A stretch of 64,000 nucleotides of DNA, from the NCBI GenBank assembly GCA_028872015.1, contig JAGWLO010000002.1:62001-126000 (forward strand), read 5' to 3'. The position numbers and the translations under genes were made by a program. Numbering within the stretch: the first letter of the stretch is position 1; every line of letters begins with the position of its first letter. The notes beneath the pieces are model-generated. The model saw nothing but the letters and a program-made list of their open reading frames with translations. It was not told where the DNA came from and ran no database searches. This DNA comes from Burkholderiales bacterium. GTDB taxonomy: Bacteria > Pseudomonadota > Gammaproteobacteria > Burkholderiales > Burkholderiaceae_C. Positions 59,662 through 64,000 of this stretch are shown piece after piece.

Positions 59662-61923
59662 ATGCTTCGCTTTCGATTTCCCATCGTCATCATCGACGAG
59701 GACTTCCGCTCCGAGAACACCTCGGGTTTCGGCATCCGCGCGCTCGCCCAGGCGATCGAGAAGGAGGGCTTCGAGATCCTCGGCGCCACCAGTTACGGCG
59801 ACCTGAGCCAGTTCGCGCAGCAGCAAAGCCGCGCCAGTGCCTTCATCCTGAGCATCGACGACGAGGAATTCACGCCCGGCCCCGAGCTCGATCCGGCGGT
59901 GCTGAACCTGCGCAAGTTCATCGAGGAGATCCGCTTCAAGAACGCCGACATCCCGATCTACATCTACGGCGAGACGCGCACCAGCCAGCACATCCCGAAC
60001 GACATCCTGCGCGAGCTGCACGGCTTCATCCACATGTTCGAGGACACGCCGGAATTCGTCGCCCGGCACATCATCCGGGAAGCCCAGAGCTACCTCGACG
60101 GCCTGGCGCCGCCGTTCTTCAAGGCCCTGATGGGCTACGCGCAGGACGGCTCGTACAGCTGGCACTGCCCGGGGCATTCGGGTGGCGTGGCGTTCCTGAA
60201 GAGCCCGGTGGGCCAGATGTTCCACCAGTTCTTCGGCGAGAACATGCTGCGCGCCGACGTCTGCAACGCGGTCGAGGAGCTCGGCCAGCTGCTCGACCAC
60301 ACCGGTCCGGTGGCGGCCAGCGAACGCAACGCGGCGCGCATCTTCAACGCCGACCACTGCTTCTTCGTCACCAACGGCACCAGCACCAGCAACAAGATGG
60401 TTTGGCACCACACGGTCGCCCCCGACGACGTGGTGGTGGTCGACCGCAACTGCCACAAGAGCATCCTGCACGCCATCATCATGACGGGCGCGGTGCCGGT
60501 GTTCCTGACGCCCACGCGCAACCACTACGGCATCATCGGCCCGATCCCCGAGAGCGAGTTCTCGCCCGACGCCATCAAGCGCAAGATCGCCGCCAACCCG
60601 CTGCTGACGGGGGTGGATGCGCAGAGCGTGAAGCCGCGCATCCTGACGCTGACGCAGAGCACCTACGACGGCGTGCTCTACAACACCGAAACCATCAAGC
60701 ACGCGCTCGACGGCTACGTCGACACGCTGCACTTCGACGAGGCCTGGCTGCCGCACGCCGCCTTCCATCGCTTCTACGGCAGCTTCCACTCGATGGGCAA
60801 GAAGCGGCCGCGGCCGCGCGACCAGCTCGTGTTCGCCACCCAGAGCACGCACAAGCTGCTGGCGGGCCTGAGCCAGGCGAGCCAGGTGCTGGTGCAGGAC
60901 GCCACCGAGCGCAAGCTCGACCGGCACCTCTTCAACGAGGCCTACCTGATGCACACCAGCACCAGCCCCCAGTACGCGATCATCGCCAGCTGCGACGTGG
61001 CCGCGGCCATGATGGAAGCCCCCGGCGGCCCGGCGCTGGTGGAAGAGAGCATCCTCGAATCGCTGGACTTCCGGCGCGCGATGCGCAAGGTCGAGGCCGA
61101 GTACGGCGCCGACTGGTGGTTCAAGGTCTGGGGCCCCGACCTGCTGGCGCCCGAAGGCGTGGGCGAGAGCGCGGACTGGGTGCTGCGGGCCGACAACAAC
61201 TGGCACGGCTTCGGCGACCTGGCCGAGGGCTTCAACCTGCTCGACCCGATCAAGTGCACCATCATCACGCCGGGGCTGGACCTGTCGGGCCGCTTCGCCG
61301 ACAGCGGCATCCCGGCCAGCATCGTCACCAAGTTCCTGGCCGAGCACGGCGTGGTGGTCGAGAAGACGGGCCTGTACTCGTTCTTCATCATGTTCACGAT
61401 CGGCATCACCAAGGGCCGCTGGAACACGCTGCTGACGGCGCTGCAGCAGTTCAAGGACGACTACGACAAGAACGCGCCGATGTGGCGCATCCTGCCCGAG
61501 TTCTGCGCCGTCCACCCGCGCTACGAGCGCATGGGCCTGCGCGACCTGTGCCAGGCCATCCACGGCATGTACGCCAAGGGCGACATCGCCCGCCTCACCA
61601 CCGAGATGTACCTGTCCGACCTGCAGCCGGCGATGAAGCCCAGCGATGCCTTCGCCCACATCGCGCGCCGCAGCACCGAGCGGGTGGCGATCGACGCGCT
61701 GGAAGGGCGCATCACCACGGCGCTGCTGACACCCTATCCGCCGGGCATCCCGCTGCTGATCCCGGGCGAGCGCTTCAACCGCAAGATCGTCGATTTCCTG
61801 CGCTTCACGCGCGCCTTCAACGCCGCCTTCCCGGGCTTCGACACCGACGTGCATGGCCTGGTCGAGTCCGACGCCGAAGGCGTGGCGCGTACCTACTACG
61901 TCGACTGCGTCCAGGAAGCCTGA
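59662..61923 (+). CDS. Arg/Lys/Orn decarboxylase (PLP-dependent, fold I)
   Basis: 753 residues, the full-length biodegradative decarboxylase form. An N-terminal response-regulator-like wing domain (FPIVIIDEDFRSENTSGFGI) precedes the PLP core with SWHCPGHSGGVAFLKSPVG, VTNGTSTSNKMVWHHTVA, LHFDEAWLPHAAFHRFYG and the PLP Lys in FATQSTHKLLAGLSQ. A C-terminal domain ends near YYVDCVQEA. Substrate (Arg, Lys or Orn) is not certain from sequence reading; products are agmatine, cadaverine or putrescine. It acts in polyamine supply or acid resistance. No antiporter partner (such as AdiC or CadB) is adjacent, favouring a biosynthetic role. Confidence 0.9.
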   Translation: MLRFRFPIVIIDEDFRSENTSGFGIRALAQAIEKEGFEILGATSYGDLSQFAQQQSRASAFILSIDDEEFTPGPELDPAVLNLRKFIEEIRFKNADIPIYIYGETRTSQHIPNDILRELHGFIHMFEDTPEFVARHIIREAQSYLDGLAPPFFKALMGYAQDGSYSWHCPGHSGGVAFLKSPVGQMFHQFFGENMLRADVCNAVEELGQLLDHTGPVAASERNAARIFNADHCFFVTNGTSTSNKMVWHHTVAPDDVVVVDRNCHKSILHAIIMTGAVPVFLTPTRNHYGIIGPIPESEFSPDAIKRKIAANPLLTGVDAQSVKPRILTLTQSTYDGVLYNTETIKHALDGYVDTLHFDEAWLPHAAFHRFYGSFHSMGKKRPRPRDQLVFATQSTHKLLAGLSQASQVLVQDATERKLDRHLFNEAYLMHTSTSPQYAIIASCDVAAAMMEAPGGPALVEESILESLDFRRAMRKVEAEYGADWWFKVWGPDLLAPEGVGESADWVLRADNNWHGFGDLAEGFNLLDPIKCTIITPGLDLSGRFADSGIPASIVTKFLAEHGVVVEKTGLYSFFIMFTIGITKGRWNTLLTALQQFKDDYDKNAPMWRILPEFCAVHPRYERMGLRDLCQAIHGMYAKGDIARLTTEMYLSDLQPAMKPSDAFAHIARRSTERVAIDALEGRITTALLTPYPPGIPLLIPGERFNRKIVDFLRFTRAFNAAFPGFDTDVHGLVESDAEGVARTYYVDCVQEA

Positions 61924-61946: not shown

Positions 61947-62732
61947 TTACTCGTCGAGCGCCAGCCCCATCATCTTGCTGAAGCCGCCGTCGACGTAGGT
62001 GATCTCGGCGCTGATCCCGCTGGCCAGGTCCGACAGCAGAAACGCGGCCACGTTGCCGACGTCGGCGATGGTGATGTTGCGGCCGATGGCGGAGTTTTCG
62101 GCCGCGGCCTCGATCATCTTGCCGATGCCCTTGATGCCCGAGGCGGCCAGCGTCTTGATCGGCCCGGCCGAGATGCCGTTCACGCGCACGCCCTTGCGGC
62201 CCAGGCTGGCCGCCAGGTACCGCACGCTCGCCTCCAGCGAGGCCTTGGCCAGACCCATCGTGTTGTAGTTGGGCATGGCGCGCTCGGCACCCAGGTAGCT
62301 CAGCGTCAGCAGCGACGAGTTCGGCCGCAGGTAGGGCAGGGCGGCCTTGGCCAGCGCCGGGAAACTGTAGGCCGAGATGTCGTGAGCGATGCGGAAGTTC
62401 TCGCGCGTGAGGCCGTCGAGAAAGTCGCCCGCGATCGCCTCGCGCGGTGCATAGCCGATCGCATGCACCAGGCCGTCGAACTGGCCCCAGGCGGCGCCCA
62501 ACTGCTCGACGAGGCGGGCGATCTGGGCATCGTCGCCAACGTCGCACTCGAAAACCAGGCTGGAGCCGAACTCCTGCGCGTACTCGGTGATGCGGTCGCG
62601 GAATCGATCGCCCACGTAGCTGAAGGCGAGCTCGGCCCCCTGGGCGCGGCAGGCCCGGGCGATGCCGTAGGCGATCGACCGGTTGGACAGCACGCCGGTG
62701 ATCAGAAAGCGCTTGCCGGCAAGAAAGCTCAT
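61947..62732 (-). CDS. fabI: Enoyl-[acyl-carrier-protein] reductase (NADH) FabI
   Basis: 261 residues of the divergent short-chain dehydrogenase type: KRFLITGVLSNRSIAYGIAR (NADH site), VHAIGYAPREAIAGDFLDGL and the active-site region LSYLGAERAMPNYNTMGLAK with the Y-x6-K pair. The end NVAAFLLSDLASGISAEITY is family-typical. It reduces enoyl-ACP in the last step of each fatty-acid elongation cycle. It is convergent with the decarboxylase gene and divergent from the rimP operon, with a shared upstream region of about 110 bp to the rimP transcription start. Confidence 0.97.
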   Translation of the reverse strand: MSFLAGKRFLITGVLSNRSIAYGIARACRAQGAELAFSYVGDRFRDRITEYAQEFGSSLVFECDVGDDAQIARLVEQLGAAWGQFDGLVHAIGYAPREAIAGDFLDGLTRENFRIAHDISAYSFPALAKAALPYLRPNSSLLTLSYLGAERAMPNYNTMGLAKASLEASVRYLAASLGRKGVRVNGISAGPIKTLAASGIKGIGKMIEAAAENSAIGRNITIADVGNVAAFLLSDLASGISAEITYVDGGFSKMMGLALDE

Positions 62733-62812
62733 GGCGACTCCGTGGGTCTCGCGATCGGGGGCGGCATTCTGGCACGCAGCCCGCCCCCGGGGCCTGCCGG
62801 CAACGGGCCGGC

Positions 62813-62841
62813 TTGCCCGTGCAAAAAGGCCGGTCTATAAT
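62813..62841 (+). promoter_or_regulatory. Promoter of the rimP-nusA operon
   Basis: A -35 box TTGCCC (62813-62818) and a perfect -10 box TATAAT (62836-62841) with 17-bp spacing, the best sigma-70 promoter in the window. Transcription should begin near 62848. The TTG inside the -35 box cannot be the rimP start. Confidence 0.8.
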
Positions 62842-62866
62842 CCGCGCTTTCCCGGGGTGTGCTGCG

Positions 62867-62895
62867 TGGGCGGAATCTTCCAGCCCATTTTTTTT
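62867..62895 (+). terminator. Terminator-like hairpin in the rimP leader (candidate attenuator)
   Basis: TGGGCGGA-ATCT-TCC-A-GCCCA forms an 8-bp stem with one bulged A, followed directly by eight T. It lies about 20 bp after the expected transcription start of the rimP-nusA operon, so it would stop transcription before rimP unless prevented. Further hairpins follow in the leader (GTCCTG 62956-62961 with CAGGAC 62998-63003 enclosing GGCTCG/CGAGCC). rimP leaders with attenuators are known in gammaproteobacteria. Confidence 0.6.
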
Positions 62896-63019
62896 GCTCG
62901 ATCGACTCTTGTGTGGCTTGCGGACGGACTTGTCCTCCGCACGCCACCGGCGCCGGTCCTGGCGGCTCGCCCCGGAGCATGGGTCGAGCCACCGGATCAG
63001 GACGCAGGGGACCAAGGGT

Positions 63020-63757
63020 TTGGGTCAGACATCGGGCAACCACGCCAGGCAGGGCGCAGTCAAGGCGGCTGGGCGCAGCCGTGCGCAAGGCGGCACCCAA
63101 GGCCGTGCGGCTGCGCCGCGTCGTCCGCCGGCCCGCAGCGCCGAGCCGGCGGCGCCGGTCGACCTGGCCGCCCGCGTGGGCTGGCGCGAGGCGATCTCGG
63201 CCACGGTGGGCGGCCTGGGCTACCAGCTCGTGGATGTGGAGCGGGCCGGGCGCGGGCTGCTGCGCATCACGATCGACCGCGTGCCCGGCCGGGCTTACGC
63301 CAGCCGCGGCGCCGAGGGCGCAGCGCCGGACACGGGCGAATTCGTCACCGTCGAGGATTGCGAGCAGGTCACGCGCCAGCTGCAGTACGCGCTGGAGGTC
63401 GAGGGCCTGGACTACGCGCGGCTCGAGGTGTCCTCGCCGGGGCTGGACCGGCCGCTGCGCACCGAAGCCGATCTCCAGCGCTTCTCGGGCCAGGCCGTCC
63501 ACGTGGCGCTGAAGGTGCCGTTCCAGGGCCGCAAGGTCTGGCAGGGCGTGCTCGGCGCAGCACCCGAAGGCGGCTGGCAGCTCGTGTTCGACGACGGCAA
63601 GGCCGAGCAGGTGTTCGGATTCAGGCTCGAGGAGGTGCGCGAGGCACGCCTCGTGCCGGTGCTGGATTTCAAGGGCCGCAAGTCGGGTGCGCAAGCCCCG
63701 CGCGGCGGTCAGGCAGGCGCGGCGCAAGCCGCCGCGCCGGGCGTCGAAGGAGGCTAG
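63020..63757 (+). CDS. rimP: Ribosome maturation factor RimP
   Basis: 245 residues from the TTG at 63020, or 193 from the GTG at 63176. The conserved core starts at the latter: [20 protein letters not shown], then [40 protein letters not shown] and [20 protein letters not shown], followed by a C-terminal SH3-like domain. RimP helps 30S subunit assembly. The TTG has a GGGG ribosome site 9 bp upstream and GC-rich codon bias runs through the Arg/Ala-rich extension, so a longer start is plausible; GTG 63176 lacks a ribosome site. nusA follows after 7 bp. Confidence 0.9.
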
Positions 63758-63764
63758 GGAAGCG

Positions 63765-64000
63765 ATGAATCGCGAAATGTTGATGCTGGTGGATGCCATC
63801 TCGCGCGAGAAGACGGTCGACCGCGACGTCGTCTTCGGCGCCGTCGAGGCCGCGCTGGCACAGGCCACGAAGAAGCTCAATGGCGGCGAGGTCGACATCC
63901 GCGTCGCGGTCGACCGCGAGACGGGCGACTACGAGACCTTCCGTCGCTGGCTGGTGGTGCCCGACAGCGCCGGCCTGCAGAACCCCGACGCCGAAGAACT
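63765..64000 (+). CDS. nusA: Transcription termination/antitermination factor NusA, N-terminal part
   Basis: Only the first 78 residues are in the window; the gene runs off the right edge. The start [20 protein letters not shown] and [19 protein letters not shown] are the classical NusA N-terminal domain that binds RNA polymerase. NusA modulates pausing, termination and antitermination, and can control its own operon. The ATG at 63765 follows an AGGGA ribosome site, 7 bp after rimP. Confidence 0.95.

Follow-up and report, generated by a model that had tools for sequence, protein, structure and literature searches.

A promoter-proximal terminator-like hairpin ahead of rimP-nusA in a Burkholderiales bacterium: a probable NusA feedback attenuator

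NusA is a central factor of transcription termination and pausing. Control of its operon has been described in other bacteria. For E. coli, control of the operon by NusA itself has been reported (primary study Bylund 2011), and in B. subtilis NusA is autoregulated through NusA-stimulated termination in its leader (2025 review PMC12288461, on Mondal 2016). RNA-seq of S. agalactiae revealed termination of rimP-operon transcription 31 nt past its start, and NusA feedback was proposed (PMC4448216). A general rimP-leader was described as a GGGc(...)gCCC hairpin without antiterminator, with NusA as the best effector candidate (Naville and Gautheret 2010, PMC2965389). A preliminary description of the locus studied here had attributed rimP leaders to gammaproteobacteria; they are described there but are not restricted to them, as the general version is present in the majority of species (PMC2965389). 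Among the papers listed from the open-licence literature, which was our scope (subscription papers fell mostly outside it), no study of a betaproteobacterial rimP or nusA leader was evident. Here we analyse the leader of rimP-nusA in a Burkholderiales bacterium, within a window of 64,000 nucleotides that comprises the whole stretch of DNA analysed.

Promoter, hairpin and genes of the locus

The features of the locus are collected in Table 1. A promoter scan over 2 kb returned one site where 0.1 was expected. The near-consensus promoter of the preliminary description was confirmed with 10 of 12 consensus positions and a 17-nt spacer, but the gap of about 20 bp given there between promoter and hairpin depends on the point of reference: it is ~19 nt from a guessed transcription start and 25 nt from the -10 element. 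As RNA, the hairpin is composed of TGGGC-GGA-AUCU-UCC-A-GCCCA, and the T8 tract follows directly after its closing A. The isolated hairpin has a folding energy of -10.8 kcal/mol and also forms when the whole 191-nt leader is folded to minimum energy (z -2.2; 4 of 200 shuffles were equally good). A simple terminator scan did not report it, and a one-base bulge in the stem (the bulged A) is the most likely reason. The coordinates of hairpin and T8 were confirmed on the sequence, and the arrangement is more than chance: T8 is the sole run of at least seven T on either strand of the 64-kb window, the pattern GGGC-N(3-22)-GCCC followed by a T run occurs a single time on both strands together, and the hairpin is found at all 30 loci of the genus examined below.

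Table 1. Coordinates of the rimP-nusA leader and its neighbours in the window
Feature	Position	Strand	Basis or remark
Orn/Lys/Arg decarboxylase gene	59662-61923	+	upstream neighbour
Enoyl-ACP reductase gene, fabI-like	61947-62732	-	upstream neighbour, divergent from rimP
Sigma-70-type promoter TTGCCC-17-TATAAT	62813-62841	+	consensus match 10/12
-35 element TTGCCC	62813-62818	+	sequence check
-10 element TATAAT	62836-62841	+	17-nt spacer to -35
Initial transcribed stretch, begins UUUCC	62848-62866	+	predicted start near 62848
Terminator-like hairpin TGGGC-GGAATCTTCC-A-GCCCA (= TGGGCGGAATCTTCCAGCCCA)	62867-62887	+	fold, conservation
GGGC of the general rimP-leader motif	62868-62871	+	
GCCC of the general rimP-leader motif	62883-62886	+	
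U8 tract (T8)	62888-62895	+	3' end of short RNA expected near 62895
Downstream box GCTCGATCG	62896-62904	+	partly conserved in genus; GCTC in 18/30
Strong hairpin in readthrough leader	62913-62947	+	window fold; sequence not conserved (alignment)
Second conserved element GGTCCTGGCGGCTCGCCCCGGAGCATGGG...	62955-62995	+	subclade only; possible hairpin, without covariation
AGGGG, possible rimP ribosome-binding site	63006-63010	+	putative
rimP	63020-63757	+	TTG start 63020 likely; frame open further upstream
nusA, 5' part	63765-64000	+	NusA_N E 8.8e-18; gene cut by window end

The rimP product matches the Pfam families RimP_N (E 3.7e-10) and DUF150_C, the C-terminal domain (E 6.3e-10). Beyond the window end, nusA is presumably followed by infB. 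The TTG start of rimP (63020-63022) is probable; in-frame TTG candidates lie near the same place at many genus loci, and the annotated start of E. coli rimP is a TTG (L113:2505-2507). A rare start codon may add a second layer of control.

Between the terminator and rimP, two strong folds are predicted, at 62913-62947 and at 62956-63003, and conserved letters are found in the second of these alone, where a subclade-specific sequence, GGTCTTGGCGGCTCGCCCGG...GGCATGGG, occupies positions 62955-62995. Its 16-base core was present with up to two mismatches in 14 of 110 leaders compared with 0 of 110 mononucleotide shuffles, and with up to three mismatches in 17 leaders compared with one shuffle (one of the 110 holds no sequence, and near-duplicates shared by the two collections of the set were removed in part). 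As a conserved RNA structure, the second hairpin was rejected: in a covariation test on 13 of the 15 extracted rows (L007 and L019 omitted), pairing amounted to 65.4% compared with 64.7% in shuffles, and sliding the alignment by one column did equally well. The second long hairpin set of the preliminary description (62956-63003) folds well in the window, but it lacks support from covariation and is conserved in a subclade only. It was kept as a conserved sequence element rather than as a supported structure, and is unlikely to be a general component of the attenuator. From T8 to the RimP match there are just 57-103 nt at four genus loci (L024, L026, L028 and L030).

Conservation in the genus, the order and the class

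RimP was found in 57 of the 61 genomes searched, the same-genus genomes G009 and G014 being without a match. The genus set consisted of 30 loci, our own and 29 from Rubrivivax-like relatives; five further same-genus genomes with a RimP match lie outside it. Promoter, hairpin, T tract and rimP follow one another in this order at all 30 loci, and TGGGC..GCCC with a T tract precedes rimP at each of them. T8 is exact at 28 loci, whereas L004 and L028 carry TTTTTTAT (T6-A-T). Folding energies of the hairpins range from -9.4 to -13.3 kcal/mol (mean -11.1). The short RNAs predicted to end at the T tract would measure 44-82 nt, and their minimum-energy fold holds the terminator stem in 29 of 30 cases; in the exception, L016, the best fold has the 5' stretch, not the hairpin arm, as the partner of the 3' arm.

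The best promoter-like pair matches at least 9 of 12 consensus positions at 29 of the 30 loci (L019 is lower), the -10 element reads TATAAT at 23, TATACT at five and TACAAT at two, and the -35 element starts with TTG at 28. From the -10 element to GGGC there are 23-31 nt at 26 loci, 39 nt in L017 and 53-58 nt in L005, L006 and L007. An additional stable hairpin lies between promoter and terminator in these last three, with a predicted short RNA of 78-82 nt.

Two further analyses used 54 distinct leaders that had passed a -10 filter, drawn from the 30 genus loci and 80 named-record loci. A TTC stretch at nt 4-12 past the -10 element was seen in 53 of them (62848-62852 in the window), as either a TTTCCCGG-type or a TTCGCTGA-type, and might influence start-site choice or slippage. 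An antiterminator was sought as pairing of the 5' stretch with the 5' arm of the hairpin and was rejected in this form, as shuffling the 5' stretch did not worsen its folding with the GGGC arm (mean z 0.07; 0 of 54 leaders at the 5% level). With the 3' arm not yet transcribed, 19 of 30 genus folds show the GGGC arm paired upstream, again no better than shuffles.

Alignment A3 and the hairpin model R1 derived from 25 of the 30 genus rows; those left out were L005-L007, which have a longer apical part and were misaligned, L023, which is shorter by one base, and L025, a near-copy of L023. None of eight stem pairs had changed on both sides in these 25 rows. There is no covariation to count because the stem letters hardly vary, and conservation within the genus alone therefore cannot separate RNA structure from sequence recognition.

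In its own genome the element is specific: R1 gave one match with E 7.6e-15, and the next had E 2.9. An exact-pattern scan of genome contigs yielded at least 119 stretches, and a RimP match starts no more than 700 nt downstream on the same strand in 116 of the 119 pattern matches listed. The remaining three loci end 294, 0 and 4 bases past the motif, before any rimP. Many of the listed records are titled Rubrivivax, Roseateles, Pelomonas, Paucibacter, Ideonella, Aquabacterium or Rhizobacter, and others are Burkholderiales or other metagenome-assembled genomes. Records L160 and L196 of Rubrivivax gelatinosus, a phototroph used in the laboratory, carry the element. Since some records are the same genomes as genus loci, the counts of 30/30 and 116/119 are not independent. 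As a background, the pattern occurred 109 times in 99 of 112 loci (622,360 bases, both strands), ten of which had two occurrences; the second ones include the same palindrome read on the reverse strand and GC-rich matches here and there. Most of the loci were chosen for rimP or the hairpin, which biases this rate, and the single match in the window is the cleaner measure. As a general finder, R1 was rejected. Across 300 genomes of the order it matched 88 at E≤0.1, and outside the family it was unspecific (RimP by tblastn at 1e-3 was present at 17 of 30 loci and missing at 13). The order-wide claim is therefore based on upstream regions anchored at rimP.

For this purpose we took the region upstream of rimP from 20 order-level genomes, one per family, out of 22 that had a RimP match (G047 and G052 were left out). 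GGGC...GCCC with a T run precedes rimP in all 20 regions, which represent 20 other families. Two letters outside the search pattern are also kept, a T before GGGC in 20/20 and an A after GCCC in 17/20. The next inward (apical) pair is standard in 16 of the 20 hairpins, with all four Watson-Crick types, compared with 8.6 expected; shuffling one side reached 16 in one of 20,000 trials. This covariation supports a function of the element as a hairpin. A lack of conservation in relatives, named in the preliminary description as a refuting outcome, was not seen: the hairpin is present in 30/30 genus loci and in the 20/20 order regions examined. In ten of the 20 order leaders (L063-L082), G or A and then TTTGT come after the T run, a box absent from the 30 genus loci.

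In the class, 178 of 187 genomes matched RimP_N, and the 30 best-scoring loci of this search, which are not a random sample, were inspected. The GGGC..GCCC-T motif precedes rimP at 21 of them. E. coli K-12 has the sequence GGGCTTTAGGCCC-T7 immediately before rimP. As the pattern is missing from nine (L088, L090, L091, L094, L097, L099, L100, L104 and L111), the motif is not universal. At several of these nine loci, other hairpins with T runs were seen by eye before rimP, often with a C-rich 5' arm.

Proposed NusA feedback and alternative readings

Promoter, hairpin and U tract, with their conservation, their place before rimP-nusA and the lack of a visible antiterminator, can be read from the sequences themselves. 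Where an intrinsic terminator stands this early and no RNA switch accompanies it, a protein acting on termination is suggested, and NusA, itself encoded by the operon, is the obvious candidate. We consider it probable that the leader is a promoter-proximal attenuator of rimP-nusA, in which NusA strengthens an intrinsic terminator and thereby exerts negative feedback. RNA polymerase would start near 62848, and within ~40 nt the GC-rich hairpin and the U8 tract would have been made. At U8, transcription would either terminate, leaving an RNA of ~48 nt, or read through into rimP and nusA. NusA bound to the polymerase would stabilise the hairpin and raise termination, so that plentiful NusA would mean less transcription of its own operon; by analogy with other bacteria, NusA would be the sensor. 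Attenuation of the operon, which the preliminary description had predicted, is the best-supported reading of the hairpin, the U tract and their conservation before rimP, although termination itself is deduced from these features.

Alternatively, the hairpin could terminate a fixed share of transcripts whatever the NusA level, as a constitutive volume control of a strong promoter. A strong hairpin with U8 could act factor-free, and neither an antiterminator nor any other sensor element is visible. However, the operon encodes NusA, and self-control by NusA has been reported in E. coli and B. subtilis; we regard a fixed share as unlikely.

The invariant GGGC and GCCC letters exceed the needs of a generic intrinsic terminator, a point against the preferred reading. 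Loops differ in letters and length among the 20 families, but this stem base does not, and it may be a sequence-specific recognition site for the RNA-binding domains of NusA or for RimP inside the terminator, and control would be read by a protein instead of depending on hairpin strength alone. We hold this to be distinctly unlikely. In a related reading, a specific protein (RimP, the NusA RNA-binding domain or another) might bind the invariant letters and set the balance of termination and readthrough in a true protein-sensing switch. Consistent with such a switch, the outer T (20/20 families) and A (17/20) around the searched GGGC/GCCC are fixed or nearly so while the loop varies, and within the genus even the apical GGA..TCC is almost invariant; the same argument is found in the 2010 paper (PMC2965389). 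On the other hand, a GGGC beside the U tract may be no more than the hairpin base that terminates best, and we judge a switch of this kind very unlikely.

The ~48-nt product might also act in trans as a small RNA, with readthrough into rimP as a secondary matter, given that it has its own promoter and terminator, no evident gene in between and a strongly conserved hairpin. Yet conservation is centred on the terminator while the 5' stretch, the would-be pairing region, varies between lineages, and every listed pattern match with enough sequence precedes rimP, which makes a small RNA extremely improbable.

That the hairpin ends an upstream transcript is scarcely credible: in many gammaproteobacteria a tRNA-Met gene lies ahead of the hairpin or of the site where it would be (before rimP in 15 of 30 class loci), but here the upstream gene is divergent, the promoter lies directly upstream of the hairpin, and the 1.5 kb upstream showed no tRNA gene at any of the 30 genus loci (1.2 kb in L023), nor did the 20 order regions (370-1001 bases each). 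With a divergent gene upstream and no tRNA, the hairpin is therefore unlikely to be a terminator of either, and nothing else appears to be there for it to terminate.

Comparison with described leaders

At gathering level, Rfam families gave no match in the window leader, and a search of 62700-63250 with E up to 5 returned a sole weak match, AsdA, on the minus strand and outside the hairpin (E 0.5). The Rfam family RF01770 did not match in the window, nor in the own genome at E≤1; across 41 genomes no match passed the cut-off and 12 genomes had weaker ones, while the positive control, E. coli, scored 102 bits. The class locus L109 reached 40.3 bits at a cut-off of 47. A Burkholderia small RNA, Bp1_162 (RF02420), gave a weak match to the rimP leader of genome G043 (L063:265-317), best on the opposite strand, with 30 bits at a cut-off of 50; the accessible part of PMC3521395 does not name the genes adjoining this small RNA.

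The 3' half of RF01770 is a hairpin of the same kind (in E. coli GGGCUUUAGGCCC-U7). In addition, RF01770 has an upstream hairpin with the inverse letters, CCCCGA..UCGGGG, and a U tract, which is typical of gammaproteobacteria. The window leader fits the general rimP-leader attenuator of 2010 and not RF01770. It shares four features with the former, namely the place before rimP-nusA, the GGGc(...)gCCC hairpin, a direct U tract and no visible antiterminator, and the 124 nt from the U tract to the likely TTG start lie inside the published range of 4-130 nt (PMC2965389). In contrast to the general version (Fig. 2b of that paper), the promoter here stops 25 nt short of the hairpin, and the genus shows an almost invariant apical GGA..UCC. 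By its letters and its place, the leader is a betaproteobacterial example of an already described control element.

The S. agalactiae leader also has a predicted intrinsic terminator near the start, and its short and long transcripts share that start (PMC4448216). S. agalactiae is a Firmicute, and termination was seen there by RNA-seq, whereas the window leader is known from sequence alone. The attenuator of the B. subtilis nusA operon, in contrast, has been studied experimentally and has a longer leader of 180 nt (PMC2965389).

What this lineage adds is the bare architecture, a promoter, 20-odd nt, a terminator and rimP, with nothing else visible that would explain the terminator. Gammaproteobacterial leaders are often mixed up with a tRNA gene and tandem hairpins, whereas here the same hairpin stands by itself directly behind one promoter. 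This suggests an old origin of the feedback, and it offers a pared-down system in which to learn whether NusA responds to the strength of a hairpin or to its sequence.
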